Source: a virus. Taken from it: 25,271 nucleotides of DNA. A model generated the notes under the pieces. That model did not search any database. It saw nothing but the letters and a program-made list of their open reading frames with translations, and was not told where the DNA came from. Both the position numbers and the translations under genes were made by a program. Positions 1 through 17,400 of this stretch are shown here, in pieces (the stretch's first letter is position 1; the number at the start of each line of letters is the position of its first letter). The stretch lies in IMG/VR virus record IMGVR_UViG_3300010354_011211, positions 1-25,271 of that record; one strand, given 5' to 3'.

Positions 1-3000
1 AACCAAGGCTTCTAAACTGTGAGTAGCAGTTGCTACAATGTTAGATCCTCCGCTATCTGTAGCAATTTCTATATAGTAAGACACTTCAATTTGTCTTGGA
101 GTGCTAATTGATCCTGCACTGACACCAAAAGAGCGATTCGTTGACAGGGGCAGCCAAAATACCGAATCTCCATCATAGTAATTACCTGAACCAGTATTAT
201 AAATTACTGTAGTTGTCCAGCGCATAAAATAGCCTGATCCTATAGCAGCAGTTTCAGGTGTGTACCAACTACCCAAGTCAACTATATCGCCTTGACCGTT
301 TTGGGTGGTAATATTACCATTAGGGTGAAAATATATGTACATATTGCAAGCTAATACGCCGGTTCCTATATCAGCGAAATGAGTTGATTTAGTTAAATTG
401 ATGGCTGCTAGGCTAACCGGATTGGCAGCAGTTGTTGTAGTTGTGGTCGATGTACTTGTTGTTAAGGATAAACTAGTATCTTGTATTTCAAATAGTAGAG
501 CATTTAGTATTGATAATGGACCACCGGTAACGCTAAAAGTAACTGCTTCTTGTCCTTCTGTGGTGATGTCAGCCACTGCTGTAAACGTAACACTTCCTTT
601 GTAGTAACCGCCGACTAATGTACTACCCAAGGTAATTGTTCCAGTTAATGTGGCAGGATTAAAATCTGAACTAGTCACCCCTGTACCGCTTAAACTACAA
701 GGTACTTCCATGCCCGGAGTTACACCAGATCCAACACCATATACAGACAATACAAATGATCTACCTTCTGGGATAAGATAACGACCAGGACTGATTTCAG
801 TAAAGGCTGGGTCGCCACTAACCGGGTCAATACCTAAAAACCCAGATGTTGCTTGAGTAGTTGTAGAAGTAGTCGATGTCGAAGTTGTTGCCGGCGCTTC
901 TGTAGTAGTCGAAGTCGTTGAAGTCGTTGAAGTCGTTGAAGTTGTTGAAGTTGTTGAGGTCGAAGTCGAGGTCGGTGTACCTGAGCATGATATAACAACA
1001 GACTTACTAGTAAATATTTCAGTATCTGTAATAAACCTTACAGTAACATAATAAGTACCGTCTGCTAAACCAGTTCGTTGTAGATAATTCGTAACTTGAT
1101 AAGGACCACGATCATCACTCGATTCAGAGGGAGCGTAAGGAGTAGTCCTTGGCATATAGGAAATTTCATAGTTTCCTGGAGGGTAAGGGCTAAGATTATC
1201 TACTTCATAAACACCCAACCCACCAGAACAACTGGCATTAAGAGTAAAGTTAATTATGCCCCCGCCAGGTGGTGGTGCTACTGTAGTAGTGGCTGGGGCT
1301 TCTGTAGTGGTGGTTGTAGAAGTTGTAGACGTTGAGGTTGAGGTTGTTGCCGGCGCTTCTGTAGTAGTTGAAGTCGTTGAAGTTGTAGAAGTTGTAGAAG
1401 TTGTAGTCGAAGTTTCAGGAGCTGCTGTGGTAGTTGAAGTTGTCGAGGTCGAAGTAGAGGTCGTTGAGGTTGATGTTGTTGTAGTAGTTGATCTATTATC
1501 AATTGGTAAAGAAATAGTTCTACCAGCAAGATTTGGATTACCAACCGAATTAGTAAATTGCCCGGCAGCAACACTGACTGTACCTGTTCCTAGAGTATTA
1601 GTATCCGGAGTAACTAATACTGTGAATACTTTGCTGTTAACCTGAGTAAACGAGGACAAGGAAATAGGCCCTGACGTTTGTACATCAGCTAGACTAAAGT
1701 CTGAAGATTCAGAAACAACAAAGGTTACTGTGGCATCTTCGCCTTGAGTTAGATTTTGATCGTTCGAATAAATTGATATCATTGGACGTCTTGTATCATA
1801 TGATACAAATAGATCATTGCTAACAGTGTTCGGGTTGCCTACTGAGCTAGTATATTTTCCAGCCTCAACATTGGCACTGGATGTCCCTGCTTGGCCTTGA
1901 TAACTTCCAGTAGCCCACCCCGATGCCCCATCAAACACAATGTCTTCATATGCTTGGTAACCTGATACATTCTTATAACCAATAAACACATGGCTATATC
2001 TCTCAGAAGTCCAAGTTTCTGATCTGTATCCACCAAAATTAGAATTTAATAAAGTTCTTGTTGCCGAGTCAATGCTAGTAGCATCAAAGGACGTTATAAC
2101 AACTAACTTACCATTAGCAATAGCATTCAGTCCTGCGATCATACCAGAATTACCTGCTACATAATCATATGTATCGTATGTGGCAGCACTTTCAAAAGCC
2201 ATTGTTGTGGCATTAAAAACAGCGACGGTGTGACCGCGACCGTATGTAGTTACACTTGTTCCATTAAGTTTGATAAAGGAAACAAAGTCGCCAGACGGCT
2301 GATTGTAATTACTAGCTTGAACTTCTATAAGATCGGCAGGTGGAGTATATGTTGCTGTATATACTGCGCCCGATCCCGATAACGCACTTAACGCACCTAA
2401 ACCACTTGTTGTAATATCAGACCTAACAAAGTTAGTAGTAGCCAAATTGCTAGTAAAGGTCAAGGTAGCTGTTTGCCCGTAATTTAAACTGTTATCATCA
2501 ACGGTCAGCACCATCGACGGGATACGAGTATCAATAGGTATAGTCAACACATTACTGGGTTTATTTCTATTTCCAACAGAGTTAGTGAAACTTGCTGCTG
2601 CTACATTTACAGTAAATGTTCCCTCTAAACTTACATTAGGAGTTAGGGTAACAGTATAAACCGAAGACGACACTGATACAAAATTGCTAACCACAGCATT
2701 GGCACTGCCACGTATGTCATTAAACCCAAAACTTGTTGTAGCGTTGCTAGTGGTAAATGTTAGAGTAGCCACTTCGCCGGCAATAAGACTAGCTCGATTA
2801 CTGGTAATCACTATTTCCGGCAAGATCGAATCAATAACGAATTGAAGCGTATTTGAAACTAAATTGAATTGGTTAGATATACCCCTAGCAGATCCTGCTG
2901 GTAGGAACATGCTGAATACATCAGAAGTTTCTAAAACAGGTTCTATCAACATTGTAGCCGATGTACCACCACTATAGGAAAAGTTAGTTAGGCTAGCTGC

Positions 3001-3933
3001 GCCACTATTAACAAAGTCACTTAATTCTAAATTGCCAGGTTGTGCCGGTTCACTCAATGCCACAGTAATAACCGGACGTTGATGTGCTAGTATTGTACCA
3101 GTCAGATTTGAACTCAACACAACAGTAAAGGGCGGTGGTGGTTCTGTTGTAGTAGTCGAAGTTGTACTGGTAGTACTTGTGGTCGTAGTTGTGGTTGGTA
3201 CCGGCGGTCTGGTAGTAGTTGTCTGTAGCACTACAGGACCCGGTATAGTAGCTGCCAGATGTGTCATCGAAAAGGTTGTGTTTAACACATTCCCTGCGGT
3301 GTTGGCAATAAAAACAAATTTTTGTTTTCCAGGAAATGAAATATTCTTACTGGCGTCTAATCTAAGATACAAACCATCGCTTGGAATTTCTGCTTGAACT
3401 TGATATAATGTAACAGCAATATGACTAAGATACATGGCTTCGTCAGACTGTCCTTGATCATGCCCTAAAGTGAACTCTGCTGAAAAAGTACTAGAGGAAT
3501 GTGGTGTCCAACCTGTGTCAAACATTACATAGCCATTTTCTGTTAGCAAATTGTTACCCCACGGAGAATAGCTATATGCTGCTGGTACCCAAGTAGATTG
3601 TGTAAAAGTATTGTACAAATAATTAGGGGCACCAGGAGCACCGGCTCCTGGAAATCCAGTTTTATTAAATACTGCCCATGTAGCACCATCTAAGGTTACT
3701 TTACTCTGTTCGTTGTCTAAACTGTCAACAAAGTGCCAATAAAAACTAAAACGCAATTTGGCGTGAGCTGGTAAATTGTTCAACGTAAAAGTATAAACAC
3801 CAGGATTCGGACCGTGCATGGTAACAGTACCTAAACTACCAACGCTGGTCATTGTGTAGGTATTAGTGTTACTCCAGTTTGCCAAATTACTATTAGCTAG
3901 AGCACCCTCAGAATAATAATTGATAATAGGCAT
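1..3933 (-). CDS. Modular Ig-like tail adhesin, 3'-partial
   Basis: The frame is open from ATG 3933 to the left edge (1311 codons, no stop), so the C-terminus is missing. It starts 9 bases after the giant gene. Modules in order: an N-terminal beta-sandwich (residues about 1-185, YTFTLNNLPAHAKLRFSFYW); a second beta domain; Thr/Ser/Pro linker (about 234-264); four tandem bacterial Ig-like domains (about 265-813), typified by LNYGQTATLTFTSNLATTNF and YTVTLTP, sharing the ends FTNSVGN.N and IPID; the third is interrupted by a FAM3/ILEI-like domain; long Thr/Ser linker (814-892); a Cys-containing beta domain (NASCSGGLGVYEV to VVISCSG); third linker; a Calx-beta-like domain (LIPEGRSFVLSV, DITTEGQEAVTFSV); a fourth linker; and a beta domain with NMYIYFHPNGNITTQ. 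No enzyme motif is visible. Such linked Ig-like arrays are typical of phage receptor-binding or decoration proteins. A late tail role is inferred from position. Which part binds the host is unknown. Confidence 0.85.
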   Translation of the reverse strand, partial: MPIINYYSEGALANSNLANWSNTNTYTMTSVGSLGTVTMHGPNPGVYTFTLNNLPAHAKLRFSFYWHFVDSLDNEQSKVTLDGATWAVFNKTGFPGAGAPGAPNYLYNTFTQSTWVPAAYSYSPWGNNLLTENGYVMFDTGWTPHSSSTFSAEFTLGHDQGQSDEAMYLSHIAVTLYQVQAEIPSDGLYLRLDASKNISFPGKQKFVFIANTAGNVLNTTFSMTHLAATIPGPVVLQTTTTRPPVPTTTTTTSTTSTTSTTTTEPPPPFTVVLSSNLTGTILAHQRPVITVALSEPAQPGNLELSDFVNSGAASLTNFSYSGGTSATMLIEPVLETSDVFSMFLPAGSARGISNQFNLVSNTLQFVIDSILPEIVITSNRASLIAGEVATLTFTTSNATTSFGFNDIRGSANAVVSNFVSVSSSVYTVTLTPNVSLEGTFTVNVAAASFTNSVGNRNKPSNVLTIPIDTRIPSMVLTVDDNSLNYGQTATLTFTSNLATTNFVRSDITTSGLGALSALSGSGAVYTATYTPPADLIEVQASNYNQPSGDFVSFIKLNGTSVTTYGRGHTVAVFNATTMAFESAATYDTYDYVAGNSGMIAGLNAIANGKLVVITSFDATSIDSATRTLLNSNFGGYRSETWTSERYSHVFIGYKNVSGYQAYEDIVFDGASGWATGSYQGQAGTSSANVEAGKYTSSVGNPNTVSNDLFVSYDTRRPMISIYSNDQNLTQGEDATVTFVVSESSDFSLADVQTSGPISLSSFTQVNSKVFTVLVTPDTNTLGTGTVSVAAGQFTNSVGNPNLAGRTISLPIDNRSTTTTTSTSTTSTSTSTTSTTTAAPETSTTTSTTSTTSTTSTTTEAPATTSTSTSTTSTTTTTEAPATTTVAPPPGGGIINFTLNASCSGGLGVYEVDNLSPYPPGNYEISYMPRTTPYAPSESSDDRGPYQVTNYLQRTGLADGTYYVTVRFITDTEIFTSKSVVISCSGTPTSTSTSTTSTTSTTSTTSTTSTTTEAPATTSTSTTSTTTQATSGFLGIDPVSGDPAFTEISPGRYLIPEGRSFVLSVYGVGSGVTPGMEVPCSLSGTGVTSSDFNPATLTGTITLGSTLVGGYYKGSVTFTAVADITTEGQEAVTFSVTGGPLSILNALLFEIQDTSLSLTTSTSTTTTTTAANPVSLAAINLTKSTHFADIGTGVLACNMYIYFHPNGNITTQNGQGDIVDLGSWYTPETAAIGSGYFMRWTTTVIYNTGSGNYYDGDSVFWLPLSTNRSFGVSAGSISTPRQIEVSYYIEIATDSGGSNIVATATHSLEALV
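846..980 (-). repeat. Thr/Ser linker with exact 9-base units
   Basis: At 911-955 a 9-base unit occurs five times in a row (three GAAGTCGTT and two GAAGTTGTT on the plus strand), encoding Thr-Thr-Ser each time. Positions 884-924 repeat 1343-1383 with one mismatch over 41 bases. Unit number could vary by slippage or recombination without breaking the frame. Confidence 0.8.
1258..1494 (-). repeat. Low-complexity Thr/Ser linker encoded by short tandem repeats
   Basis: About 79 codons, nearly all Thr or Ser, with interspersed TEAPATT motifs. In DNA it is a run of imperfect 3-, 6- and 9-base units of the GAAGTTGTT type (plus strand). It would be an extended flexible hinge between the Ig-like array and the next domain. 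Confidence 0.8.
1498..3141 (-). repeat. Four tandem bacterial Ig-like domains
   Basis: Four units of about 95-100 residues (not counting the insert in the third) share the pattern 'P.I.L.....L..GE.ATLTF', 'Y.V.LTP' and 'G.FTNSVGN.N......IPID'. They resemble the Big-type domains of bacterial surface proteins. The first is the most diverged. Similarity is at protein level; the DNA is not a simple tandem repeat. Confidence 0.7.
1893..2330 (-). other. FAM3/ILEI-like domain nested in the third Ig-like domain
   Basis: Residues about 535-680. Motifs SFIKLNGTSV, GRGHTVAVFN, YDTYDY, GKLVVITSFDAT, LLNSNFGG and YSHVFIGYKN follow the FAM3/ILEI order. The flanking sequence continues one Ig-like domain: YTATYTPPADL before, and SSANVEAGKYTSSVGNPN after, which lines up with the uninterrupted domains on either side (VNVAAASFTNSVGNRN and VSVAAGQFTNSVGNPN). 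Confidence 0.65.
3142..3231 (-). repeat. Thr/Ser/Pro linker before the Ig-like array
   Basis: About 30 codons, mostly Thr with Ser and Pro (TTTRPPVP, then Thr/Ser runs ending EPPPP). It separates the N-terminal beta domains from the Ig-like array. A shorter relative (Thr/Ser run ending in Ala-Ala-Asn-Pro) lies at about 418-470. Confidence 0.75.
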
Positions 3934-3939
3934 ATGTGA

Positions 3940-3947
3940 TACTTATA
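3940..3947 (-). promoter_or_regulatory. Possible late-promoter-like box before the adhesin gene
   Basis: TATAAGTA on the minus strand matches the T4 late core TATAAATA at 7 of 8 positions, overlaps the stop codon of the giant gene and ends 6 bases before the adhesin ATG. The same 6-base distance is seen before gp25. Chance is possible in AT-rich DNA. Confidence 0.25.
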
Positions 3948-6900
3948 ATGAATACCTATCACGAGTTTGGAAATATAAAGATAAGACTTCGTCTTCGGAT
4001 AGTTCTCTATTATAAGCATAGAACTCACCTATATCGCCACCAAACTCAAAAACATCTGGTGTCACTGCGGGATCGCTGCTGTTAGCTATAGTAATGCCGA
4101 TACCAGCAGTTCCTGAAGTTGCCGAACCATTAACCTGTGTTAGTGTACGAGATACCCCGTTTATGTAAATCTTATTGTAGTCAACATAAGTGCTTCCACT
4201 AATTGTGTTATGGAATACAGCAGTAACAAACACCCAAGAATTTTTAAATGGTAAGAATTCAAGGGCAGTAACACCGTATAGATCACCATCACCATTATTG
4301 AATCCTAGTGCGCCACCTGGCATCCACAAACGATAGTTAGTCTTGAATTCCATAGGAATCGCGTTATTGTCGCCGGTCCAACGCATCCAAAAACTAATAG
4401 TGTTATATCCGCCAGGGTCAGTATTAATTCCTGTCATGGTGCCCACTGAGCTGGCACGATCATTTACATTCACGCCACTGTTGAATGTAAACACACCTTG
4501 CTTATCTATGCTCCAGGTTGGGCTGTTGTCTAATAACTCAAAATTATTGCCAAATGCCGACATGTCTAACCAGTTTTTGCTTAACAGCATATTATTGGTT
4601 GCTGTTACTGTAACTGACTGCTGCTGCCCAGGAAGTAAACTAAACGAGCTAGGTGATATAACTGCTGTTCCGCCTGCGGGATTCGCTAGTAATCTTACTG
4701 TAATCGCTTGCGGCGAATCGCTGTTACTAGATCCCAAGAAGCCAATAGCGTATGTTTCGGTAGTACTAAACCCTGGCTCGTTGTATGGAACCTCGATTGT
4801 GGTTTCTGTTTTTCCAAATACATTAAGTGTTAATTCATGTGGCCCAACCGGTGCTGCTGTAGTTGTGGTTGTAATTGATCCGCTACCCTGTGTTAACACT
4901 CGAATACTTAAACTATCATATACATAACCAGGTAACAATTCTTCCGGAGCATGGGAGAAAATTCTATCAACAAATTTACCACCAGAAATTTTGATATTTC
5001 CTGCGCTAATACCGGCATTGCTACCAAAAGTGTCTCCGAGCAGTATAGTATCTTGAGTTGAGCTAGAGCTACCAGTATATGTACTGTATAGTGGGTCTAT
5101 ACCATTAACTAACAATTTTAGATCTTTTGGTACCGATTGACTATTCTCAGGAACATAAAAACCCATAATTCTATCATTAGCATTATCAAAAGATTCGCTG
5201 CTTATTACAGATAAATTACTGGTAGTGAAAACCACTGATCTATATGTTTGGCTGGTTACCTGATATGCTTGACCATTGTAGCTGATAATATTACCTTTAA
5301 AATAGGTAACATTAGACTGCCAATCAACCACCGACGATTTATAGGATACGCGATCAAACTTTATCGTTGTTATAAGTTTTCTTGTTTGAAGATTACGAAG
5401 TCTAGGTGATAGTTGTGCTGATATAGGTTCACGATTGCCAGATAATGTACTGGTTACTGTTTTAGTACCCGTCCAACGATATCCATCATAAACATAACTT
5501 CTTTCGCCGTATGTGTAAGATTCGCCGGCTTTGGGATTTTCTGGTAGAGCAAACGAGAAGCTAAATTTATAGAATTGCGGAGTAGCCACTAGCGGTGCTA
5601 AGTACCCTCTTTCTATCTTAAACTTAATACTACAATAAGCATCTGCTGCGTTATCAATCGATCCAGCATAGTGCTCGATTCCGCGACCCTCGCCGCAACC
5701 TGGTATACCAACTAAAATATAACTGCTTCTAAATTTAAATGTTTGACCAGCAAACACTTCTCGACTAGCACCACAACGTAGCATTTCTCTTAATAAAGAT
5801 GTCGGTTGCTGAGTTAATCTGTTTAACGAAGGTTCATCGTATGTGTGGATGACTACTACATACTCATCTGTAGTGCGTTGAAGTTCTTTAGCTAGATCAG
5901 ATGAGGTTCTACCTGTGTAGCCGAATTGATTTTGAGCGTATATATCAAATATCTCTGATGTAACAACTTGTCCGTCACTTCTACGAATACGATGAAAGTG
6001 ATATCCACGATTTTTAATACTATACAACACATCTTGATAGGGACCGTAATTCAAGAGTTCCTGTACACTAGGCGCCGAGTCATTGAGTTCTTCAAATCTA
6101 GGAAAAGCAAACTGACTCCTTGTAGAAGAATCATCACAATAATAATGATAACAACGCTGCATAGCTTGTGTAGCATTGGGAGGAAATTTACAATCTGTTA
6201 AATTACCGCTGTTTATTAAAACTTTTCCATTTAAGCGTGTGTAAATTCCGCTATCAGGATGCGCTGCGGTACCGGTATGGTCGGCAGGGAAAATATGACC
6301 GACATGTAGATACCACTCACCCTGTGTGTAGTCCGCTGCGGATCTAAAATTCCAGTAAGGGTTTTCTTCACCTGCGCCGTCTACTAATCTTCTTACACTA
6401 CCTGTTGGATTTGTTGATCCAGCATAGGACGGCCATGAACCGTTAGTATGGAGACCATGATATAACGATCCGCCAGAATCAGAAGTTGTGCGGCGCATCC
6501 ATACCACACTGCGATATGTCTTAGTGGGGTCAATGTTAGAGTTAACATGGTTCCAACCACCATCGGCGTCGCCGTCGCCACTAGGACGATTTTCCCACAC
6601 TATACTAGAGTTATTCCAAGGATCTTGATCTCGAACACGTTGATTTTCTACTACCAAGCCAATCGATTGGAAGTTACTGGTCCCGCCCGATCCTTCAGTC
6701 CAATCTAAAACATTTAACAATGAATTTTGATAGTTCGTTGTTAGTGTGTCTTTTCCACCGCGCCCAAACAGACCAAATCCTAATTTATTTCTTTCTCCTA
6801 CTGTGAAATAACTATAACCTTGTGATACTACTGTAAATTCGTGTCGTTGAGCGTCTATGGGCTTGGTAGATCCAGTACCAATTAACCGAATTGTGGGGGT

Positions 6901-9900
6901 ACTTGTAAAATTAGTGCCCGAGTCAATGACATAGGCTTTGCTTATTCCATATGTACCGCTAGCAATTTCAATAGAAACATTGGCTTCTTGTCCTGAATTC
7001 AAGTCAGTTCTTATGACCTCAACACTAGGAACTATTTCTTCAGAATTATCCGGAGTCTTAAATCCATAACCAGGACGACTGATTACAACTTCGCCTAATG
7101 TGTATTTGTGATTGTTTACCCATTCTTGATATTCAGGACGCTGTATTTCCACTAGATCAATGTCAGGGTATTCGCCACTTGGACTACGATATACGTTTAA
7201 GTTTTTATCATAGTAAGGCTGTAGATCAAAATCGGTAACCCCTAACTGATAAGTATCAATCTGATCATAGGCATTAACAAATTCTCTTATCTTGGTTCTG
7301 TAAGGCTTTACTTCTTGAACATACGATTCAATATTCTTTTGTCTATCTTTGACTAAACTAGGAAGTTGATTTAGCCCCGATATTTTACTAACGATAGTTA
7401 CAAAGCTAGTTTTGAAAAACCAATCAATATATTTTTGTTCAGTTAATATGTAATCGATCAATGAAAACAACATGATATTGTATTCATCTTTTAGATCATC
7501 AACAAAGATATCTTGTTTAAGAGCAGCTAGTACATAGCGTAACTCAGTTAAACTATTAGAATCGTATAAAGGTACATCAAAGTCTCCCACGTCAAAGCCG
7601 TCGGGCTGATATAAAATATCTTTTAATCGAATAGTTTTATTCTGTATACCTATTAATTCTAGATTTGACTTGCCATCAACAAATGTGTAGACATACATTT
7701 CCCAGTCGCCAGCCATTTGTTGATTTCTTGTAACGATGCTACCATACGATGTAGTCTTATTCAATGTAAAATTGTTAACACGTATGATATCACCGTTAGA
7801 CAAGGTTAATTTATAAATGTCTTTGAACTCGTCTATAGTATATGTTGGTACAGTGCTTGAGGAATAACCAGTCTTGTACCAATCTTTATATTCCCACAAA
7901 GTAGTTACGTCAAAACTCTGTTTACGAATCAGTCTTACAGTAGTATTGGTTGAATTGGCTAAGACATTAACTACCCCTGTCCTATCATAGAAAGCCCAAA
8001 AACCACCATAAGTGGCATCAAATCGAACTAATATTTTGATAGTAGCTTTTGTTTGCGGAGGAATGTATATATCGGTGATATAGTCTACAGCATAATCATA
8101 TTCAGATGAATCGGGTTCAGGGTCTTTGGCAAACAGATTGTCTGAATAGATTTTGTTATTATCTCTAATCTTGAATACCACAGGATATTGTTCAAACTTC
8201 GAGTTAATATAAGAAATAAAATTCCTTCTAGCATCCGGTAGATCAACAATCAAAGTCTGTCTTGGTCTTATTGATAGTCCTATTTGATTAAACTTTCCTA
8301 ACTTGGGATCGGGCACAGGGTTTCCTGATGCGTCGACTCCGGCCAAGCTGTCAATTAATTTCTGCTCAATCAAATCTGGAAACTGCTTTAAAGTATTGCC
8401 TTCTTGTAGCAACTTGAAATCGCTGTGAATAATCTTTTCATTTAGCAATTTCTTAGTAGCAATAAACATGACCGCATTATCAGTCTGTGTGTACGAACCA
8501 ACATTGTACAATGCGATTGTGTCATTCCTTAAGGCTGACATATACGGTATGCCTTGATTGCTAGGGTTTAGAATCATTTCCGCTAGACTAGCGGTGCTGG
8601 AATTTTTATGTTTAGCTGTTTTGTTTGTACGGCCTTTAACCCAAAAGAAATATCTGGACACAAAAGTATTTGTATCAGGATCTACAAATACGCTGTCACT
8701 ATAATATTCATCATTGGCAAACAGTGGTGTGCCTTCGCGACCTTCACTAACATGTACACTAGGCAGAACATCACTAACTATCCATTCGTAAACTTCTATG
8801 GTGCTACCAGGGAAAAGTTTACCCCAATTTGCGGCTCTATAATCTAAATCACCTTGCTCATAGTCTATAAATCTAGACTTATTAGTATTCCACCAGTAAG
8901 TTCCTACTTGATCATTGCCCCAATAGATTTCTTCAGAATATCTGTATTCTGAAGAATTATCTGTGTTCCTGTACGAAGCAGGATCATCGTCAGATATGAT
9001 ATCAATATCAGCTCGTGCTTGACCTAGTATTTTACCTTTATTAGGATCGTACAAATCAACTCTGGTTAAGATGTTTCTATCTTTAATGTCGTAGATATAA
9101 AGATTTTTAATACTTTCAATGTCAACAATGGGCTCAGCTGATCGAATTAAATCAAAATCATATATGTCAGTACCGACTTCAACACTACTATTCGAGTATG
9201 ATACTAGTGTTCCGTCAATGATAGGTGTGCTTGCTAGATCCGCTGCTGTTGCTGGCTCAATTGTATAGTAGAGATTTTCGCTGTCATCGTTTGAGAACAC
9301 GCAGAAATTAATTTGTTCCCCGTAAGTAACAGTCGACACCAAGCTATTAGCAACAATACAATTTATACCAATAATGCTATATGTGTTAGCAGTTATTACA
9401 TTACTGTAAAATACTTGCTTATATACAGTATCAACCTTTTTAGGTCTATATATTTGCCAAGAGTTATTAAGACCGCGATCAATGTAGACTAAATCTAAGT
9501 TGTAAGACGGATTAATTACATAAGGATCGTAGGCTAACCATCCACGTTTAGGTTGATAAGCTCGAGCATGAGATAATGTCTTAAATCTCATTTTATCAAA
9601 ATCAAACAAAGTTCCTGTGCGATTTGTTAGATTTAAATCTATACTAACACCAAGTTTTTCTACAATGAATTCGATATCGGTTGTTGACAAGACTTGATAA
9701 AAACCATTTACACTAGCGTCTATGTTACGCACAGCCACCATGTCGCCGATACTTAGATAGTGTAAACTAGAACATGTTAACACTATTTGATTATTAAGCC
9801 CAGCTCTTGCTCTAGTAATAGTAGTTGGGTTTAGAGTGGCGCGATAAACTTGCCAGTCATTATTAAAATCTTTAGCTACCCAGATTTTATAACCTGTGAC

Positions 9901-12900
9901 TAAATTAGTGAGTAACTCAGCATCAAATAATGAATAGTTTTTTATATCAAATATTTGAACGTCTACTTCATCTGCCATGGCATAGCCGGCAGTTTTGAGG
10001 TCGTCTTCGTAATATTGATATTGGCTCGAAAGATAGTCATCAATAGCCTGTTTTACAGTAGGTGCCAGTAACTTGGTTACTATGGCCCGATATCCTTCTT
10101 GTGTTGGATGAATTCCGTCGACTGAGATGTAGCTAAGATAATCAGGCATGCTGTTAACATCAACAACATAGTCCGAATTCTCTAAAGCGACTGCTCTCAT
10201 GGCATTGGCATACGGTTTAAGATCTCTAATGCCAGGGCTTTCAAAGTTGGTATTAGGATTGTTTAGATCCAATTGGGCCGGAGTTTGCCAAATCACAATC
10301 TTGTTTGCTGGCAGTCTGCGACGAATCATTCGCAAATTTTCTTTGTAGACTTCGATGTCAACACCATTCTTGGCATCCTCAAAGCCATGATTTAATATAA
10401 CAATATCAGCTTCGATGTTGTCAGGCCAAACCCCATTAACTCCATCATTGCCGTTTAATAAACTAGCTGTGGTAGAACCTTCAACACTGCGTGTTGTAAT
10501 TGCTACTTCATACTCGCTTGATAATTCTTGATATAATAAGTAGTCTGGTGGTTCGTTAACTCTACCACTGACTTTGTCTGTTAAGCAAACTCTTGTAAAA
10601 TCCAGTTCGCCTAAACCCAAAGTTGTAGTCTCTGGGAATTCTGTCGCGGCAACTTCTTCGATAGTATAGTATAGTTCTTCAGTTTGTAGTAAAGAATCAG
10701 CTTGAATAAATGCTTCAGTGCCACTCTTGACAGAATCAGGGTAATAAACAGAACCATCTAATAGTTTTGTCCTTGGAAGTTCATTAGCAGAAATAGGTTC
10801 AAGCGACATCCAGACACGTTCAAAAGGCAACCTGGTAGTAAAATTAACTAGAAGATTAGTTGAAGGTAACACAACATCAGCTGACGAAACCGCAGTCTTA
10901 TAAGCTGAGGTTGTTAGTGGTCTATCATTTTCAACAACAGGTTCAATAGTAATATACAAATCCTCAGCCGAATCTAACGATGAAAATGCTATTTTAAAAC
11001 TTTCATTATTTCTAACAAAAGATTTAGCCTCACCCGACTGAACATCTGTAACTGCTACACTGTATTTGTTAAGTGTTTGAACATCAACAGAATAACCGTG
11101 TCTCTTTATAAAACCAACTGCGTACTGAGAACTATTAATATTTTTTCCGCACATGATACTATCACCAAACATTTCGATTTTCCAAGATTTCGAAATTTGT
11201 GATATATCATTTCTATTCAAAAAGACTTGTGGACTGTAGTCTATGGGAAATGCCAATAGATTAGATGGGGTAAGCGTTACAAATTTTTCACTTTCGGCCA
11301 GTGAGTTTGAGTTTAGGAATTCAAACAACAATGGATCGTTATCATATAAAGAATTTTTAATTAAAAAGCTGTACTCTGGATTACTGTCAATAGCACCATA
11401 ACTGCCTAATCTTGCCGCCCATTCTTCGTAAAGATCAATAGTGGCATCAACGTCGTCAAACCTTCCTTTGGCAAATGCTGTAATAGCATTTTTAGTTCCT
11501 TTGGTTTTAATGTAACCTTGATAAAATTTAATTTGACTAATTCCACTAACACCTAGATTATCTAAAAAGCTTCTTGGTTTGAATCCTATCAAACTGTTAC
11601 TATAAGCTGCCAAAGATTCGTTCGTGGGTAAATTATCAACATCATAAATTTCATCAAACTTTACAGCGTTTTGACTAAAGTTAGGAGCTAGGCCTTCTCT
11701 AAATACACTGTCTAACTTGGTCCATTTATTGAAATTAAAAATTTCGCTGCCATCGATATTTTCGAGTGCGCTATAGTTAAGTCCCTTGTAAGATACAATG
11801 GAGCCTTTCCTATAATCATAGTTTGGCAACCATTGATCAATTATTCCATTACTATAAACAAATCCAGGAGGTGTTAAATCACCATCCCATGAATTGGTTA
11901 CACTGCCTAGTAATTTTAATCTGTACTGTCTATCACCTATAGCGGGGTTAAGAATTACGTCATTAAAGATTGTGGTATTGTCTAAGACTAACACATGTTC
12001 AAACTGTACCAAGTTGAGTCTAATCAAGGCAATAGTTTGTTCGCTTAGAGTTTTTATTGTTGTTCGCTTGTTCTCACGTAAAACAGTGAAGTCGTTATTT
12101 CTTATAACATTAAAATTGGTTCCTACAATCTGTGATCCATAAACATAGTTGTCGATAGTATCAACAAAATAATTTTCGGTGAAGACGCTTAGGCTATCAT
12201 TGACTGGACTCAGGACTAAAATATTTCCATTTTTCCAACCTTGTTTACTCCATGTAACAAATTCTTTTACACTAAGCAACCAATTTTTTACAGTTTTCAA
12301 ATTACTGTCATATTCATCAAACACTAAACCTTGAGCTACAAGATAACGTTGATAGCTTACTAAAAAGTCTACTACTTGTTGAATGCTGGTAAATTCGAAA
12401 CCATAAGGTATTCTTATTTTTTGTGGGAAATATTTTTCAAATATTGTTACGTTTTCGCCTAATATTTCCATCTTATAATTAGTACCAGTGCTTCGACTTG
12501 GTATGATTATAAAATAAGGTAATCGTTGATCATAACCCGTTACAGTGTATCCTCGACTAGTCTTTTCAATTATGACTCCACTGTATGTGATAGTCTCTTG
12601 TGGAAGACTCTTATTCAAAAATATATCATAACTTTCGTTAGGAATAACGACACTTTCACTAGTGCTAGTTAGACTAATTTGATTAGCCAGAACAGTAATA
12701 TAATTTTTGTCCGTAAACCCACCAAACTTGTATGATAAATTTACATCACTATAGTTAATAAATTCTCGAAGTTTACTGTTAGCGTCAAATCCAAGACTGG
12801 TCAAATAACCATGTATCCAGTTAATGTAACCTGCGCTATATGTTGTTGTACCATTAACTGTTTCACCATTGATTATGATGTCTTTGAATGAAAATTTAAC

Positions 12901-15900
12901 ATTTTGTTTTTTACTGAAATACTGCGAAAGAGTACTAAAAGTACGTCTCTCAACATTGTAGGTATCAAACAGTATACCAAAATATCTTGCTGGCTTTAGC
13001 AATGCTAAACATTTTTGTATAGCATAGGCATAATTACTAGTCCTAGCCCAGGCAGTCTCAACTGGACCGTAATCGCCTAGTCCAAAGTTTTTAGATAACC
13101 TTTCACTATTAAAACCAGTAACTAGAACTTTTTGTGGCGAAAGTAATTGCCCATCAATGCCAACTGGTACATATTGTTCTATGTTTGCTCTAGCATAGAT
13201 CGAGTTTGTAGCTGTAAGATAATTTGTAGCAGTAGGTATCAGTCTTCTACCATTCTTTAATGCTTGTATAAGATTTGATCGTTTAACCAGGTCAGTCCAT
13301 GAATAATGAGTATCCCACCAAGTCGGTTTGACACTATAACCAAGCATTTCCCATGGATGGCTGTCAGGACGATCTGTGTCGTAGTAATAACGATATACAC
13401 CCCTCCAGTATCCTGGTAATCTATCACCACCAAAGTCAACTGATTGATTGTAGTTCCATGTCCATTCGTCGTTGGGAGAAAAATAACGGTTAGTAGAGTA
13501 ATCAAGCTGATTTTCACCAACCCACTTTAAAAATTCTATCCCTAAAACATTATTAAATTCATTTCTAGTATATTCAGTTGACCTAAACTTGCCAGGCATG
13601 AATTGGTGTATGTTGACTAGGTTAGGGTTGTAATTTACCTTAATATTACTGTAAATTCTTCTTTCTAATTCTAAAATCAAATCGTCTCTTATGTCATTGA
13701 ACGCTGGAAATAGGCTACCGTCATGGCCCTGGATCAAGTACATTCCGTTACCAGTTGATTCATCTAGAATTTTCTGTGGGTAGAATTTGGGATACAAACC
13801 CAGCTTAGTTGGGGTTTCAGGAATATAACTACCGTTGGTGTTTTGAAATTCTTTGAAAGTTATGATATCATATTCTTTCAAATCATAATTAGAGCTGATA
13901 GTAACAGTAATATTGTTAGTGTCAATTACATAATCAATGTCCCTAGTAATTAAGACATCATTAATATAAATTAACAGTGCTCGATTGGATGGTTCAATCG
14001 AAATAGAATTGTTTAGATTGTAAGTTCTTTGTCCTGTGTTAGTTACTCTTATAGTGGTTGTGAGAAAATTCTTTCCAAAAGGAACCATGTCAGAGTAGTA
14101 CCAAGGAAAATCTTGGTTCTTTACTTGAGCAAAACTCAGTAGAACTTCGTCAACAATATCGGGTACTTTGTTAAAACTACCAATATGGTTACCAATAGTT
14201 TCGAAAAATTTATATTTGAATCTTTCATATTCTTTGGCAGCGAAGTCGATACTATTGATAAAATTAATTTGCTGGTTGGTTAAAAATGCCATGGCCGGAA
14301 TAAGACTGGCACTGTTTTGAATTAATGTTCCGCCTACATCGAGTTTGATGTCTCTTAAATTTGAACTACCAAAAACTTCACCTACTAAGTCTTTGTGGTT
14401 CTCACCTATTCTTTCTAAATGATTTCTTAGTTGACCAAAAGAAACTTGATCAAATGTTTGATTAAACGGATTGAATTCTAGATTTTTAGGGATTTCGTAG
14501 TATCCCGATTTGATAGGAGAAGCAGCGTAGACAAATATATCTATCTTGTCTCCTTTAGTTAGAAGGTTATGATTTATTTTTACTGCTACAGTTTCGTTAA
14601 CATACTCTATACTATACTCAGGATCATCAATAGTTTGTAATCTTAGAAACTTATTGTTAACATAAACTCGAACACTGGCATCAGAATCTAAACTGGCTTT
14701 TGGATCCTGACTGATCTCAAAATAGTTAGTTACAGCATCGTACTTTGCTTCAATATGCTGAAACTGCTTTGATGTTCCTGCAGAAGAAAAATTAGTTAGA
14801 ACATTAAATCTCGATGATGTTAAATTCTTTCTTATGTATCCTATGTTGATAGGTGTTTTAACTTTATCCTCAAGAACACTGCCGACTCTATAATAAAAAG
14901 AATCATGATCGTAATTGTTGTCAAATAAAATATCAGAAGTAAAACTTGTTGTACCTGAATATTTCATTGGAAACCCAAGAACAATATCATTTGTACCAGA
15001 TCCAATTCCATAGCTGAATAATGGGCTTCCCGCAAAAGTACTTTCAGGATAAGAGTCCAAGCTAGTACCATTTAACGTTATTATGTCAAACAGTGGAGGT
15101 TGATTTAATTTTTTCTTTTGCTGCGAAACGCTCCACTTATTTCCTATATCAAGATAAAAAGATATGCCAGTGTTTGTGCCAGAAAGCACTACAATCGAAT
15201 CCCAAACGTCACAAGTTGTTATTTCCGATAAAACAACACGAGCATAGTTGACTAATACACCAGAATAATTTGAAAGAAAATAGTTAATAGGTGATTCTAA
15301 TATTAGATCATTACTGCCTAAAATTTGTTTCACACGACCCAAATAACTTCGATCGGCTAGATACAAATCGCAACCAATTTCTAATTCTGTAGTAAAGTTG
15401 GTGTTTGACCCTGTGACACGATCTGTGCCTGTCATTGATATGGTACCAGTGATAGAGGTTTGGTTGTTAGGCACAACTCTATCAAATACTGTAGCACCGG
15501 CTTGATCTAACCTGTTAACACGATAAATTGTTTTTGAATAATTTGTATCTGTAGCAAAAATTGCTGTTTGACCTGCTACTAAATTGATTTTTTTAGCAGC
15601 AAGATCTCTAAATCTTACTCCATTAATAGTCTCTAAGATATTATCAATACGATTGGGCTGACCTTGGTAAACGTACCTGAAATTTTCATCGAAGAACTGA
15701 TCTACAAATTGACGAAATTTTCTCCCGGTATTGTAAAGTTGTAAGCTACCTTGAAATTCTATAATTGGTCTATCGGCCCTAATTAGATTCGAAAAGTCTA
15801 AAGGTATGTTGTTGTGTTCAAACGAAGTTTTAATAACATCATAATGTACCCAACGATTAATCCTGGACCAAGCATTGTTGTCTAAACTGTTACGATTAAC

Positions 15901-17400
15901 AACAATGTAATCAGGTTTGTTTGAGCCTAATAAACTTTCATCAAAGTTACCAACGTCAAACTGTTTGCTTTCAAAGGCAATTTGTGTTGTTGCTTCCAAA
16001 ATCTCTGGGACTACAAGCCTATCATAATCAACTAAAGCGATCGACTCGCCTACACCCTCAACAAAATAAGTTTTGTTCCTGTATGATGTAGGTAATACAG
16101 TGTCATCAAACGACACTTTCATACCATTAGTAAATTGTACTCCATCAGGGGTAACGTAATTAACTGATCCAATTATGGCCGATACATTGATATCATAATT
16201 GATACCAGGTTCGACCAATTCAATAACACCAAAGTAATCGCGTCCCGAATGTTGATAATACAGAGTTTTATGTTCTCCGGTAATACCGTTAAATTCTATA
16301 TAAGATCCCGAGCTAGTAACATATTCTTTGCCCCGACTTGTTCCCAGGTTGACTAATACTCTTGTATTATCTTCAATGTTTCTTACAAAATCAACTTCGA
16401 TACGAACAGGTTGTCCAGAGTACTTTACTGTGCTTAATCTAAACACACCGGTTCTTTGATCTTCTGGTATAATTGTACCAAACCGATTAGTCCAATCTGC
16501 GGGGTCGGAGCTGTTATTAATGAAAATTATGTCTGTATTGTCAGGATAAAATTGATCACCACTTAGTTGACCGCTCATGCCTTCGCCAAAGTTCCATACA
16601 CTGTTATCTAATACAGCAAGAGTTTCTGATATAGCATACTCAACATGGTCAACTAAGGGATATTGTAAGTAAACATCCTGAGCTCCTTCAACAGGAGGAG
16701 TAAAAGTAATCGTAGAAGAACCGTTATTAGTTACACCTGCTACTGCCCTAGAGCTTGAATTGTAGCTGTATTGTTTTATACCATTTGATCCAGGTTCAGA
16801 CTGAATGTATAAATTACCAAGGAACATACTGGTATTGATGGTGTATGTTACACCACGCTTTAAATACAGTTTAGGATTTTGTTCTGACCCAGTTAAATTT
16901 GTTGAAATATAAGTGAATTGGTCAGTAAAGTTTATAGTAGTGTTAGAAAAAATTCTACGACTAGTAATTTTAATAGCTTCAGGACCAACTGGCATCCAGT
17001 AATAATTTTTATAATTAACTAACTTGTCAATATCAATTGGCGGAGAGTAAGAATAATATTCGTTATTAAATAGCCTATCGTGATCATTGGTAATACCACC
17101 ATAAACACCAATTCTATTAACAAGATCACTGTATCCAGCATATGTTTTTATGGTGCTGTCGTCTTCTCTTGTGGTAAATCCAATTTCAAGCTGATAGTTT
17201 TTACGTTGTAAACTGGCTTCTTCTACATAGTTTTCGTTAGGTTCATAAGCTGTGCTGAATCTACGGCCAACGAATCCATTGATTCTCTTAAAATCGGGTT
17301 CGCTAACTAACTGATCTAATGTACTAGAAAGAAACTTGCGATTGGCATCTGTTTGAAAAATGCTAGGGAGAAATCTAATTGTACGTCGTGTAACGGCCAT
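3943..17400 (-). CDS. Giant multidomain baseplate/tail structural protein in the gp7 position
   Basis: One uninterrupted frame of 4485 residues, roughly 500 kDa. It starts at ATG 17400, 11 bases after gp6. The N-terminus (RFLPSIFQTDANRKFLSSTL, then NYYWMPVGP) and parts such as AAKEYERFKYKFFETIGNHI and YVQEVKPYRTKIREF have the style of large structural proteins of T4-like marine phages. Its place after gp6 suggests gp7, the wedge protein that contacts the fibres, though I cannot show homology to T4 gp7 (1032 residues). Visible modules: a GTISMTGTDRVTGSNTNF-type repeat near residues 640-700; CBM5/12-like motifs (YDYRKGSIVSYKGLNYSA near 1855; VTYFKGNIISYNGQAY near 4030); an SGNH-esterase-like domain at about 2072-2455 containing small LYYTIE repeats; a jelly-roll-like module at about 3560-3785; a FAM3/ILEI-like domain at about 3793-3925; a Thr linker at 4172-4183; an Ig-like domain; and a LamG-like C-terminus. 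No signal peptide or membrane segment is seen. The last third probably faces the host surface. Confidence 0.85.
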   Translation of the reverse strand: MAVTRRTIRFLPSIFQTDANRKFLSSTLDQLVSEPDFKRINGFVGRRFSTAYEPNENYVEEASLQRKNYQLEIGFTTREDDSTIKTYAGYSDLVNRIGVYGGITNDHDRLFNNEYYSYSPPIDIDKLVNYKNYYWMPVGPEAIKITSRRIFSNTTINFTDQFTYISTNLTGSEQNPKLYLKRGVTYTINTSMFLGNLYIQSEPGSNGIKQYSYNSSSRAVAGVTNNGSSTITFTPPVEGAQDVYLQYPLVDHVEYAISETLAVLDNSVWNFGEGMSGQLSGDQFYPDNTDIIFINNSSDPADWTNRFGTIIPEDQRTGVFRLSTVKYSGQPVRIEVDFVRNIEDNTRVLVNLGTSRGKEYVTSSGSYIEFNGITGEHKTLYYQHSGRDYFGVIELVEPGINYDINVSAIIGSVNYVTPDGVQFTNGMKVSFDDTVLPTSYRNKTYFVEGVGESIALVDYDRLVVPEILEATTQIAFESKQFDVGNFDESLLGSNKPDYIVVNRNSLDNNAWSRINRWVHYDVIKTSFEHNNIPLDFSNLIRADRPIIEFQGSLQLYNTGRKFRQFVDQFFDENFRYVYQGQPNRIDNILETINGVRFRDLAAKKINLVAGQTAIFATDTNYSKTIYRVNRLDQAGATVFDRVVPNNQTSITGTISMTGTDRVTGSNTNFTTELEIGCDLYLADRSYLGRVKQILGSNDLILESPINYFLSNYSGVLVNYARVVLSEITTCDVWDSIVVLSGTNTGISFYLDIGNKWSVSQQKKKLNQPPLFDIITLNGTSLDSYPESTFAGSPLFSYGIGSGTNDIVLGFPMKYSGTTSFTSDILFDNNYDHDSFYYRVGSVLEDKVKTPINIGYIRKNLTSSRFNVLTNFSSAGTSKQFQHIEAKYDAVTNYFEISQDPKASLDSDASVRVYVNNKFLRLQTIDDPEYSIEYVNETVAVKINHNLLTKGDKIDIFVYAASPIKSGYYEIPKNLEFNPFNQTFDQVSFGQLRNHLERIGENHKDLVGEVFGSSNLRDIKLDVGGTLIQNSASLIPAMAFLTNQQINFINSIDFAAKEYERFKYKFFETIGNHIGSFNKVPDIVDEVLLSFAQVKNQDFPWYYSDMVPFGKNFLTTTIRVTNTGQRTYNLNNSISIEPSNRALLIYINDVLITRDIDYVIDTNNITVTISSNYDLKEYDIITFKEFQNTNGSYIPETPTKLGLYPKFYPQKILDESTGNGMYLIQGHDGSLFPAFNDIRDDLILELERRIYSNIKVNYNPNLVNIHQFMPGKFRSTEYTRNEFNNVLGIEFLKWVGENQLDYSTNRYFSPNDEWTWNYNQSVDFGGDRLPGYWRGVYRYYYDTDRPDSHPWEMLGYSVKPTWWDTHYSWTDLVKRSNLIQALKNGRRLIPTATNYLTATNSIYARANIEQYVPVGIDGQLLSPQKVLVTGFNSERLSKNFGLGDYGPVETAWARTSNYAYAIQKCLALLKPARYFGILFDTYNVERRTFSTLSQYFSKKQNVKFSFKDIIINGETVNGTTTYSAGYINWIHGYLTSLGFDANSKLREFINYSDVNLSYKFGGFTDKNYITVLANQISLTSTSESVVIPNESYDIFLNKSLPQETITYSGVIIEKTSRGYTVTGYDQRLPYFIIIPSRSTGTNYKMEILGENVTIFEKYFPQKIRIPYGFEFTSIQQVVDFLVSYQRYLVAQGLVFDEYDSNLKTVKNWLLSVKEFVTWSKQGWKNGNILVLSPVNDSLSVFTENYFVDTIDNYVYGSQIVGTNFNVIRNNDFTVLRENKRTTIKTLSEQTIALIRLNLVQFEHVLVLDNTTIFNDVILNPAIGDRQYRLKLLGSVTNSWDGDLTPPGFVYSNGIIDQWLPNYDYRKGSIVSYKGLNYSALENIDGSEIFNFNKWTKLDSVFREGLAPNFSQNAVKFDEIYDVDNLPTNESLAAYSNSLIGFKPRSFLDNLGVSGISQIKFYQGYIKTKGTKNAITAFAKGRFDDVDATIDLYEEWAARLGSYGAIDSNPEYSFLIKNSLYDNDPLLFEFLNSNSLAESEKFVTLTPSNLLAFPIDYSPQVFLNRNDISQISKSWKIEMFGDSIMCGKNINSSQYAVGFIKRHGYSVDVQTLNKYSVAVTDVQSGEAKSFVRNNESFKIAFSSLDSAEDLYITIEPVVENDRPLTTSAYKTAVSSADVVLPSTNLLVNFTTRLPFERVWMSLEPISANELPRTKLLDGSVYYPDSVKSGTEAFIQADSLLQTEELYYTIEEVAATEFPETTTLGLGELDFTRVCLTDKVSGRVNEPPDYLLYQELSSEYEVAITTRSVEGSTTASLLNGNDGVNGVWPDNIEADIVILNHGFEDAKNGVDIEVYKENLRMIRRRLPANKIVIWQTPAQLDLNNPNTNFESPGIRDLKPYANAMRAVALENSDYVVDVNSMPDYLSYISVDGIHPTQEGYRAIVTKLLAPTVKQAIDDYLSSQYQYYEDDLKTAGYAMADEVDVQIFDIKNYSLFDAELLTNLVTGYKIWVAKDFNNDWQVYRATLNPTTITRARAGLNNQIVLTCSSLHYLSIGDMVAVRNIDASVNGFYQVLSTTDIEFIVEKLGVSIDLNLTNRTGTLFDFDKMRFKTLSHARAYQPKRGWLAYDPYVINPSYNLDLVYIDRGLNNSWQIYRPKKVDTVYKQVFYSNVITANTYSIIGINCIVANSLVSTVTYGEQINFCVFSNDDSENLYYTIEPATAADLASTPIIDGTLVSYSNSSVEVGTDIYDFDLIRSAEPIVDIESIKNLYIYDIKDRNILTRVDLYDPNKGKILGQARADIDIISDDDPASYRNTDNSSEYRYSEEIYWGNDQVGTYWWNTNKSRFIDYEQGDLDYRAANWGKLFPGSTIEVYEWIVSDVLPSVHVSEGREGTPLFANDEYYSDSVFVDPDTNTFVSRYFFWVKGRTNKTAKHKNSSTASLAEMILNPSNQGIPYMSALRNDTIALYNVGSYTQTDNAVMFIATKKLLNEKIIHSDFKLLQEGNTLKQFPDLIEQKLIDSLAGVDASGNPVPDPKLGKFNQIGLSIRPRQTLIVDLPDARRNFISYINSKFEQYPVVFKIRDNNKIYSDNLFAKDPEPDSSEYDYAVDYITDIYIPPQTKATIKILVRFDATYGGFWAFYDRTGVVNVLANSTNTTVRLIRKQSFDVTTLWEYKDWYKTGYSSSTVPTYTIDEFKDIYKLTLSNGDIIRVNNFTLNKTTSYGSIVTRNQQMAGDWEMYVYTFVDGKSNLELIGIQNKTIRLKDILYQPDGFDVGDFDVPLYDSNSLTELRYVLAALKQDIFVDDLKDEYNIMLFSLIDYILTEQKYIDWFFKTSFVTIVSKISGLNQLPSLVKDRQKNIESYVQEVKPYRTKIREFVNAYDQIDTYQLGVTDFDLQPYYDKNLNVYRSPSGEYPDIDLVEIQRPEYQEWVNNHKYTLGEVVISRPGYGFKTPDNSEEIVPSVEVIRTDLNSGQEANVSIEIASGTYGISKAYVIDSGTNFTSTPTIRLIGTGSTKPIDAQRHEFTVVSQGYSYFTVGERNKLGFGLFGRGGKDTLTTNYQNSLLNVLDWTEGSGGTSNFQSIGLVVENQRVRDQDPWNNSSIVWENRPSGDGDADGGWNHVNSNIDPTKTYRSVVWMRRTTSDSGGSLYHGLHTNGSWPSYAGSTNPTGSVRRLVDGAGEENPYWNFRSAADYTQGEWYLHVGHIFPADHTGTAAHPDSGIYTRLNGKVLINSGNLTDCKFPPNATQAMQRCYHYYCDDSSTRSQFAFPRFEELNDSAPSVQELLNYGPYQDVLYSIKNRGYHFHRIRRSDGQVVTSEIFDIYAQNQFGYTGRTSSDLAKELQRTTDEYVVVIHTYDEPSLNRLTQQPTSLLREMLRCGASREVFAGQTFKFRSSYILVGIPGCGEGRGIEHYAGSIDNAADAYCSIKFKIERGYLAPLVATPQFYKFSFSFALPENPKAGESYTYGERSYVYDGYRWTGTKTVTSTLSGNREPISAQLSPRLRNLQTRKLITTIKFDRVSYKSSVVDWQSNVTYFKGNIISYNGQAYQVTSQTYRSVVFTTSNLSVISSESFDNANDRIMGFYVPENSQSVPKDLKLLVNGIDPLYSTYTGSSSSTQDTILLGDTFGSNAGISAGNIKISGGKFVDRIFSHAPEELLPGYVYDSLSIRVLTQGSGSITTTTTAAPVGPHELTLNVFGKTETTIEVPYNEPGFSTTETYAIGFLGSSNSDSPQAITVRLLANPAGGTAVISPSSFSLLPGQQQSVTVTATNNMLLSKNWLDMSAFGNNFELLDNSPTWSIDKQGVFTFNSGVNVNDRASSVGTMTGINTDPGGYNTISFWMRWTGDNNAIPMEFKTNYRLWMPGGALGFNNGDGDLYGVTALEFLPFKNSWVFVTAVFHNTISGSTYVDYNKIYINGVSRTLTQVNGSATSGTAGIGITIANSSDPAVTPDVFEFGGDIGEFYAYNRELSEDEVLSLYFQTRDRYSL
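3946..4605 (-). other. LamG-like (concanavalin A-type) C-terminal domain
   Basis: Residues about 4266-4485. The pattern of a laminin-G type 3 domain is visible: YNTISFWMRWTG, NSWVFVTAVFH, a KIYINGVSRTL strand, FGGDIGEFYAYNRELSEDEV and a final LYFQTRDRY. This fold commonly binds sugars and often ends phage tail or fibre proteins. An Ig-like domain (about 4606-4848) precedes it, joined to the rest by a Thr5-Ala-Ala-Pro linker. Confidence 0.75.
5626..6024 (-). other. FAM3/ILEI-like domain in the giant protein
   Basis: Residues about 3793-3925. The order of motifs (FDIY, a helix, YVVVIHTYDEPSLNRL, LLREMLRCGAS, a FRSSYILVGIPG motif, then a Gly-rich turn) matches the FAM3/ILEI fold known from animal secreted proteins and the POMGNT1 stem domain, where it binds carbohydrate in the latter. 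In a phage tail a sugar- or surface-binding role is the natural inference. The identification rests on motif order alone. Confidence 0.6.
6050..6705 (-). other. Jelly-roll, carbohydrate-binding-like module of the giant protein
   Basis: Residues about 3566-3784. Strand-rich sequence with many aromatic residues (TYRSVVWMRRT, GSLYHGLHTNG, GEWYLHVGHIFP, SQFAFPRFEELND) reads like a beta-sandwich carbohydrate-binding module. Five Cys-rich positions (CKFPPN, RCYHYYCDD) stand out. It lies just before the FAM3/ILEI-like domain, so the two may form one receptor-binding unit. Confidence 0.4.
9215..9335 (-). repeat. Fourth LYYTIE-type repeat, outside the SGNH domain
   Basis: The unit INFCVFSNDDSENLYYTIEP, followed by ATAADLASTPIIDG, matches the three repeats inside the SGNH domain but lies about 1.4 kb further along the gene. 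Its existence shows that this unit is a mobile or duplicable building block within the protein. Confidence 0.55.
10036..11187 (-). other. SGNH/GDSL-esterase-like domain interrupted by repeats
   Basis: Residues about 2072-2455. Block I reads EMFGDSIMCG with the expected nucleophile Ser2081. Block II is probably the Gly in SVEGSTTASLL. Block III reads ILNHGFEDA, with Glu2341 where the family has Asn (G-x-N-D). Block V reads SVDGIHPTQEGY, giving Asp2428 and His2431. About 190 residues separate block I from the PPDYLLYQELSSEYEV segment that normally follows within some 20 residues; this insert contains three small repeats. Such domains in phage tails usually remove acetyl or acyl groups from host surface polysaccharide. 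Activity is uncertain because of the Asn to Glu change. Confidence 0.65.
10614..11025 (-). repeat. Three diverged LYYTIE-type protein repeats inside the SGNH domain
   Basis: Three units follow one another, centred on LYITIEPVVENDRPLTT, VWMSLEPISANELPRTK and LYYTIEEVAATEFPETT, each preceded by a beta-like stretch and followed by a short Leu-Gly or Leu-Asp-Gly turn. The repeats are similar in protein but diverged in DNA. They resemble the short Ig-like 'LYYTI' units of phage tail proteins. Confidence 0.6.

Follow-up and report, generated by a model that had tools for sequence, protein, structure and literature searches.

An ILEI/POMGnT1-stem-like domain nested in an Ig-like domain of a putative tail adhesin from a relative of jumbo myoviruses

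The ILEI/GG domain is a known phage part. In PMC10276149, the GG superfamily comprises FAM3, POMGnT1, TMEM2 and phage gp35, and the description of the domain in phage tail fibres is attributed to Guo et al. 2006. ILEI has further been reported in the tail fibre proteins of Basilisk-like phages (PMC6145125), and it is annotated in Dickeya phages. In 2022, the CBM_1 domain of Streptococcus phage TP-778L was read as a POMGnT1-stem-like carbohydrate-binding module with conserved Arg and Asp (PMC9437275). In the "evolved Dit" of siphophages, it is a loop of the galectin domain that has received a carbohydrate-binding module (PMC9437275, PMC9692632). The POMGnT1 stem contacts beta-GlcNAc through Arg129, Asp179 and Arg207, and a worm Fam3L1 domain in which residues equivalent to Asp179 and Arg207 are missing fails to bind GlcNAc (PMC9802357). 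An earlier note on the DNA analysed here had presented the occurrence of this fold in a phage tail protein as something rare, which was an overstatement, since the tail-fibre reports go back to 2006 (PMC10276149) and concern several phages; only the nesting described below is unusual.

The window, i.e., the whole stretch of DNA that was analysed, is a 25,271-base IMG/VR virus record, the minus-strand genes of which match baseplate wedge and hub families, and the closest isolates to which are jumbo myoviruses of the PA5oct type, the RaK2 type and Agrobacterium phage Atu_ph07. The virus is an uncultured myovirus related to the PA5oct/RaK2/Atu_ph07 jumbo phage group. Adjoining the baseplate wedge and hub genes is a multi-domain tail/adhesin gene at 1-3933, which is the last gene, starts at 3933 and is 3'-open at the window edge, so that 1311 of its codons lie in the window and the C-terminus is missing. 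All window coordinates in this text refer to the minus strand. The neighbour of the adhesin gene, at 3943-17400, encodes a baseplate-associated protein of 4485 residues with a GDSL-lipase-type domain at residues 2283-2439 and a chitin-binding CBM_5_12 module at residues 4027-4049.

The adhesin is composed of an N-terminal domain (residues 1-183; 3385-3933), a Thr/Ser-rich linker, four Ig-like domains and further domains with Thr/Ser-rich linkers. The N-terminal domain, with its DQGQSDEAMYLSH motif, occurs at 22 IMG/VR loci in varied architectures and has a weak match in cyanophage P-RSM6, while a PDB search with its sequence gave no match. The Pfam family Big_12 (PF19078) matches the adhesin with 112 bits in three stretches, the best of them at residues 368-462. 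Ig-like domain 1 (residues 269-369; 2827-3129) was delimited by alignment to the other repeats, Ig-like domain 2 (residues 370-469; 2527-2826) is uninterrupted, and so is Ig-like domain 4 (residues 715-813; 1495-1791), which was placed by repeat alignment and Ig profile. Ig-like domain 3, or Ig3, is divided into a first half (residues 470-535; 2329-2526) and a second half (residues 685-714; 1792-1881), and between them lies an insert of 149 residues (536-684; 1882-2328). Thr/Ser-rich linkers at 904-962 and 1312-1481 are encoded in part by 9-base tandem repeats, and tracts of the same kind also link the other domains of the adhesin; such tracts could be sites of recombination or slippage.

Consider how the two parts of Ig3 score against an Ig profile for which the uninterrupted repeats of the window and of its relatives were used. 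The first half alone scores 50.3 bits and covers profile positions 3-66, the second half alone scores 20.9 bits and covers positions 72-99, and when the halves are joined the score becomes 69.9 bits across positions 3-99, i.e., that of one complete Ig domain. The insert itself scores 1.3 bits, and when the first half is followed by a shuffled second half the score is 49.6 bits, without any gain. From the fact that the halves are complementary, while the insert and the shuffled control are not, it follows that the interruption is real and that the point of insertion can be read. The same complementarity is seen in four orthologues. In the predicted model, comparison with the strands of Ig-like domain 2 places the insert between strands E and F of Ig3. 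A sequencing or assembly accident is ruled out by three other contigs with an insert at the same site. Among the loci compared, it is only the sister Ig repeats that point to insertion rather than to loss; an orthologue with an empty Ig3 was not found in IMG/VR, where searches with the flanking Ig domains returned the same contigs only, all of them either with the insert or ending before it.

On the insert, the Pfam profile ILEI (PF15711) scores 39.7 bits with an E-value of 7.2e-10, the cut-off being 27, and in a search of the whole genome the nested domain scores 45 bits. The best PDB chains found by profile from the sequence alone are FAM3A, FAM3C and POMGnT1. An AlphaFold2 model of residues 370-814, made from a five-sequence alignment, has a mean pLDDT of 78 and a pTM of 0.59; pLDDT is mostly 65-88 in the ILEI region, with some loops below 50, and about 73-92 in the Ig strands that flank the insert (73-83 in the second half). 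Model residues 161-315 superpose on the POMGnT1 stem (5ggj_B) with a Z of 14.7 over 137 residues at 3.0 A, and the model matches FAM3C (5lc3), FAM3B (2yoq), FAM3A (7ecq) and TMEM2 (8c6i) with Z values of 14.3, 14.0, 13.7 and 10.8, respectively. The twelve top matches of the structure search are all POMGnT1 stem, FAM3 or TMEM2, and the lower ones include Ig tandems of the FdeC/intimin/invasin type among other beta-sandwich proteins; one of these, intimin 6tpl_B, spans the insert (model residues 2-345, 173 aligned). When the whole model is searched against BFVD, the best match is R4TIA3 (E 8.7e-25, 24% identity), with low TM-scores, as the chain of the model is flexible. A chance match of the ILEI profile is rejected by E-value and fold. 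By profile and predicted structure, then, the nested domain has the beta-beta-alpha fold of FAM3 and the POMGnT1 stem and belongs to the ILEI (PF15711)/GG domain superfamily. In bacterial genomes, a short exact-pattern scan, which was not exhaustive, found none with the ILEI profile. The earlier note had proposed a FAM3/ILEI-type insert within one Ig-like domain, with a readable insertion point and with Ig strands on both sides that close into a single domain, and all of this is borne out by profile, joined halves and predicted fold; its extent, given there as 1893-2330 and about 145 residues, needed a small correction to the limits given above.

Residues that touch the sugar in POMGnT1 can be located in the nested domain through a hidden Markov model alignment to 5ggj_A, in which the chain index plus 86 gives the POMGnT1 residue, with the numbering of PMC9802357 used as a check on the spacing. 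In this alignment Arg566 (2236-2238) is the equivalent of Arg129, Asp617 (2083-2085) that of Asp179, and Arg645 (1999-2001) that of Arg207. In none of the three columns does any of the 17 aligned phage ILEI domains deviate; these are made up of the four nested copies, five from the giant neighbouring protein and eight from other phages. The domain in the 4485-residue neighbour (5698-6009), which at 32.1 bits exceeds the Pfam cut-off, is a second ILEI domain of the window with the same three residues; it is about 61-63% conserved in four relatives and matches Dickeya phage proteins annotated as "putative ILEI domain-containing". The conservation of Arg566, Asp617 and Arg645, together with the reading of the TP-778L domain as a carbohydrate-binding module (PMC9437275), strengthens the case for the exposed sugar- or receptor-binding role that the earlier note had suggested for the nested domain, although the same residues could be conserved for the sake of the fold instead.

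The likeness to TP-778L extends further: its CBM_1 sits in Tal, a tail adhesion protein, belongs by tblastn matches to the same domain family, and has the POMGnT1 stem as its best structural match and the same Arg and Asp contact residues. It differs in that CBM_1 lies in series with its neighbours, between linkers and 3-beta domains, and its sequence identity to the nested domain is only about 30-35%. With the evolved Dit the adhesin shares the principle of a sugar-binding-type module that is lodged in a loop of a structural tail domain and projects outwards, but here the receiving domain is a Big_12 Ig repeat where the Dit has a galectin domain, the folds of the inserted modules differ, and the phage is a contractile-tail relative; Dit and galectin families are absent from Pfam, PHROGs and NCBIfam scans of the in-window part of the adhesin. 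Compared by description, the GG domain of gp35 belongs to the same superfamily, and we know of no nesting there. Human FAM3A-C and the POMGnT1 stem agree with the nested domain in fold (Z 13.7-14.7) and in the Arg, Asp and Arg residues. FAM3 proteins are stand-alone and secreted, with disulfides and conserved cysteines, whereas the nested domain is free of cysteine and lies inside a phage protein of more than 1311 residues. In the part of the literature covered, no report was found of an ILEI/GG domain nested in an Ig-like domain, and what is new is this nesting, which in two relatives occurs twice over.

The insert is found at the same place in the IMG/VR contigs 3300010354_000325 (L007), 3300022752_000104 (L001) and 3300023179_000258 (L005), while contig 3300023179_000409 (L009) stops before it; conservation of the nested domain among the relatives is 54-57%. 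The ILEI domain of L001 and L005 is in turn split, after its strand HVFIGYK, by a jelly-roll domain of about 165 residues, at L001 6880-7420 and L005 8580-9120. By alignment, the loop that receives it corresponds in the window to about residues 655-660 (1954-1971). The inner domain, with 41-43% (L001) and 44% (L005) identity to the N-terminal domain found in this protein family, is a copy of the one with which the protein itself begins. In blastp, the window's N-terminal domain matches the nested jelly-roll of L001 with 43% identity (E 8e-37), and the model of that nested copy suggests a jelly-roll fold also for the N-terminal domain. In the L001 model, the inner domain matches the Eph ligand-binding domain and modules of CBM27 and CBM22 type (Z about 8-10), and the POMGnT1 stem aligns on either side of it (residues 70-430). 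Since the last 50 residues of this AlphaFold2 model are poor, with a pLDDT of 20-40 in the second Ig half, it supports the nesting of the jelly-roll in ILEI, and not the closure of the Ig domain.

The relatives also suggest how the block may have moved. As far as the end of the first Ig3 half, L001 and L005 agree at 42-68% of their bases; from the start of ILEI (codon about 536-537) through Ig4 the figure is 69-100%, and downstream of Ig4 it is about 40%. In the L001 gene the block of high identity takes up approximately codons 536-1011, and elsewhere the two genes are 37-68% identical. The similarity of L009 and L001 likewise rises sharply within Ig2-Ig3, where 224 bases are 84% identical. 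Judged from these identities, the segment from ILEI to Ig4 looks like a recently recombined cassette with one of its edges at the insertion junction.

The reading that we favour, with a probability of about 0.65, is that of a tail or baseplate adhesin in which the ILEI domain nested in Ig3 most likely binds glycan and the nested block is exchanged as a cassette. A POMGnT1-stem-like (ILEI/GG) domain lies in the E-F loop of the third Ig domain of the stalk, and Ig3, by closing around it, would hold the module sideways on the stalk, joined to it by two chain crossings rather than a single one. Presumably exposed on the virion in this way, the module would most likely grip a host-surface sugar via Arg566, Asp617 and Arg645; the grip would add to the avidity or specificity that the terminal receptor-binding parts provide, and may take part in the choice of host. 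In relatives the ILEI loop accepts a further jelly-roll domain, and the whole nested block appears to pass between phages as a cassette. The fuller picture, a Russian doll in which Ig houses a sugar-binding ILEI domain, ILEI in the sisters houses a galactose-binding-like jelly-roll derived from the N-terminus, and the junction-edged cassette is swapped, seems to us somewhat better than an even bet.

The main rival, which we consider unlikely though deserving of weight, is that the nested domain is a structural spacer, a hinge or a protein-protein contact that binds no sugar and would serve to stiffen the stalk or to connect it with a neighbouring fibre. A structural role is possible because the domain is carried by gp35, the hinge connector of T4. 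Among phage carriers of the domain, gp35 was the first to be described (PMC10276149), which speaks for such a role, as does the position of the nested domain mid-stalk among Ig domains and not at the tip, and the second ILEI domain in the neighbouring protein would suit a pairing of the two. These points have to be set against the invariance of the sugar-contact residues, against the occurrence of the ILEI copies of other phages within proteins annotated as receptor-binding or host-range, and against the recombination of the ILEI-led block between relatives. Parts that contact the host are often recombined in this way.

That the module binds host structures other than carbohydrate, or is a decoration without consequence for infection, is quite improbable in view of the 54-57% conservation between relatives with fixed contact residues. 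Least probable is an ILEI domain placed end to end after half a degenerate Ig domain, with the later strands belonging to another Ig: the second Ig3 half does comprise only 30 residues and is weakly predicted in L001, but the halves add up to a full domain in four orthologues, the window's own model forms strands in the second half at a pLDDT of 73-83, and Ig tandems such as that of intimin align across the insert.

For the biology of these phages, the finding means that an animal FAM3/POMGnT1 sugar-binding fold would be in use in tails of the jumbo-phage type, and that Ig stalks of phages can act as sockets in which binding modules are nested, up to a depth of two levels. Should the domain prove to bind sugar, the long multi-domain tail proteins of uncultured phages could be searched at their Ig-loop insertions for means of host recognition that have been missed so far, while the phage copies would offer simple systems for a fold the function of which in animals is debated.
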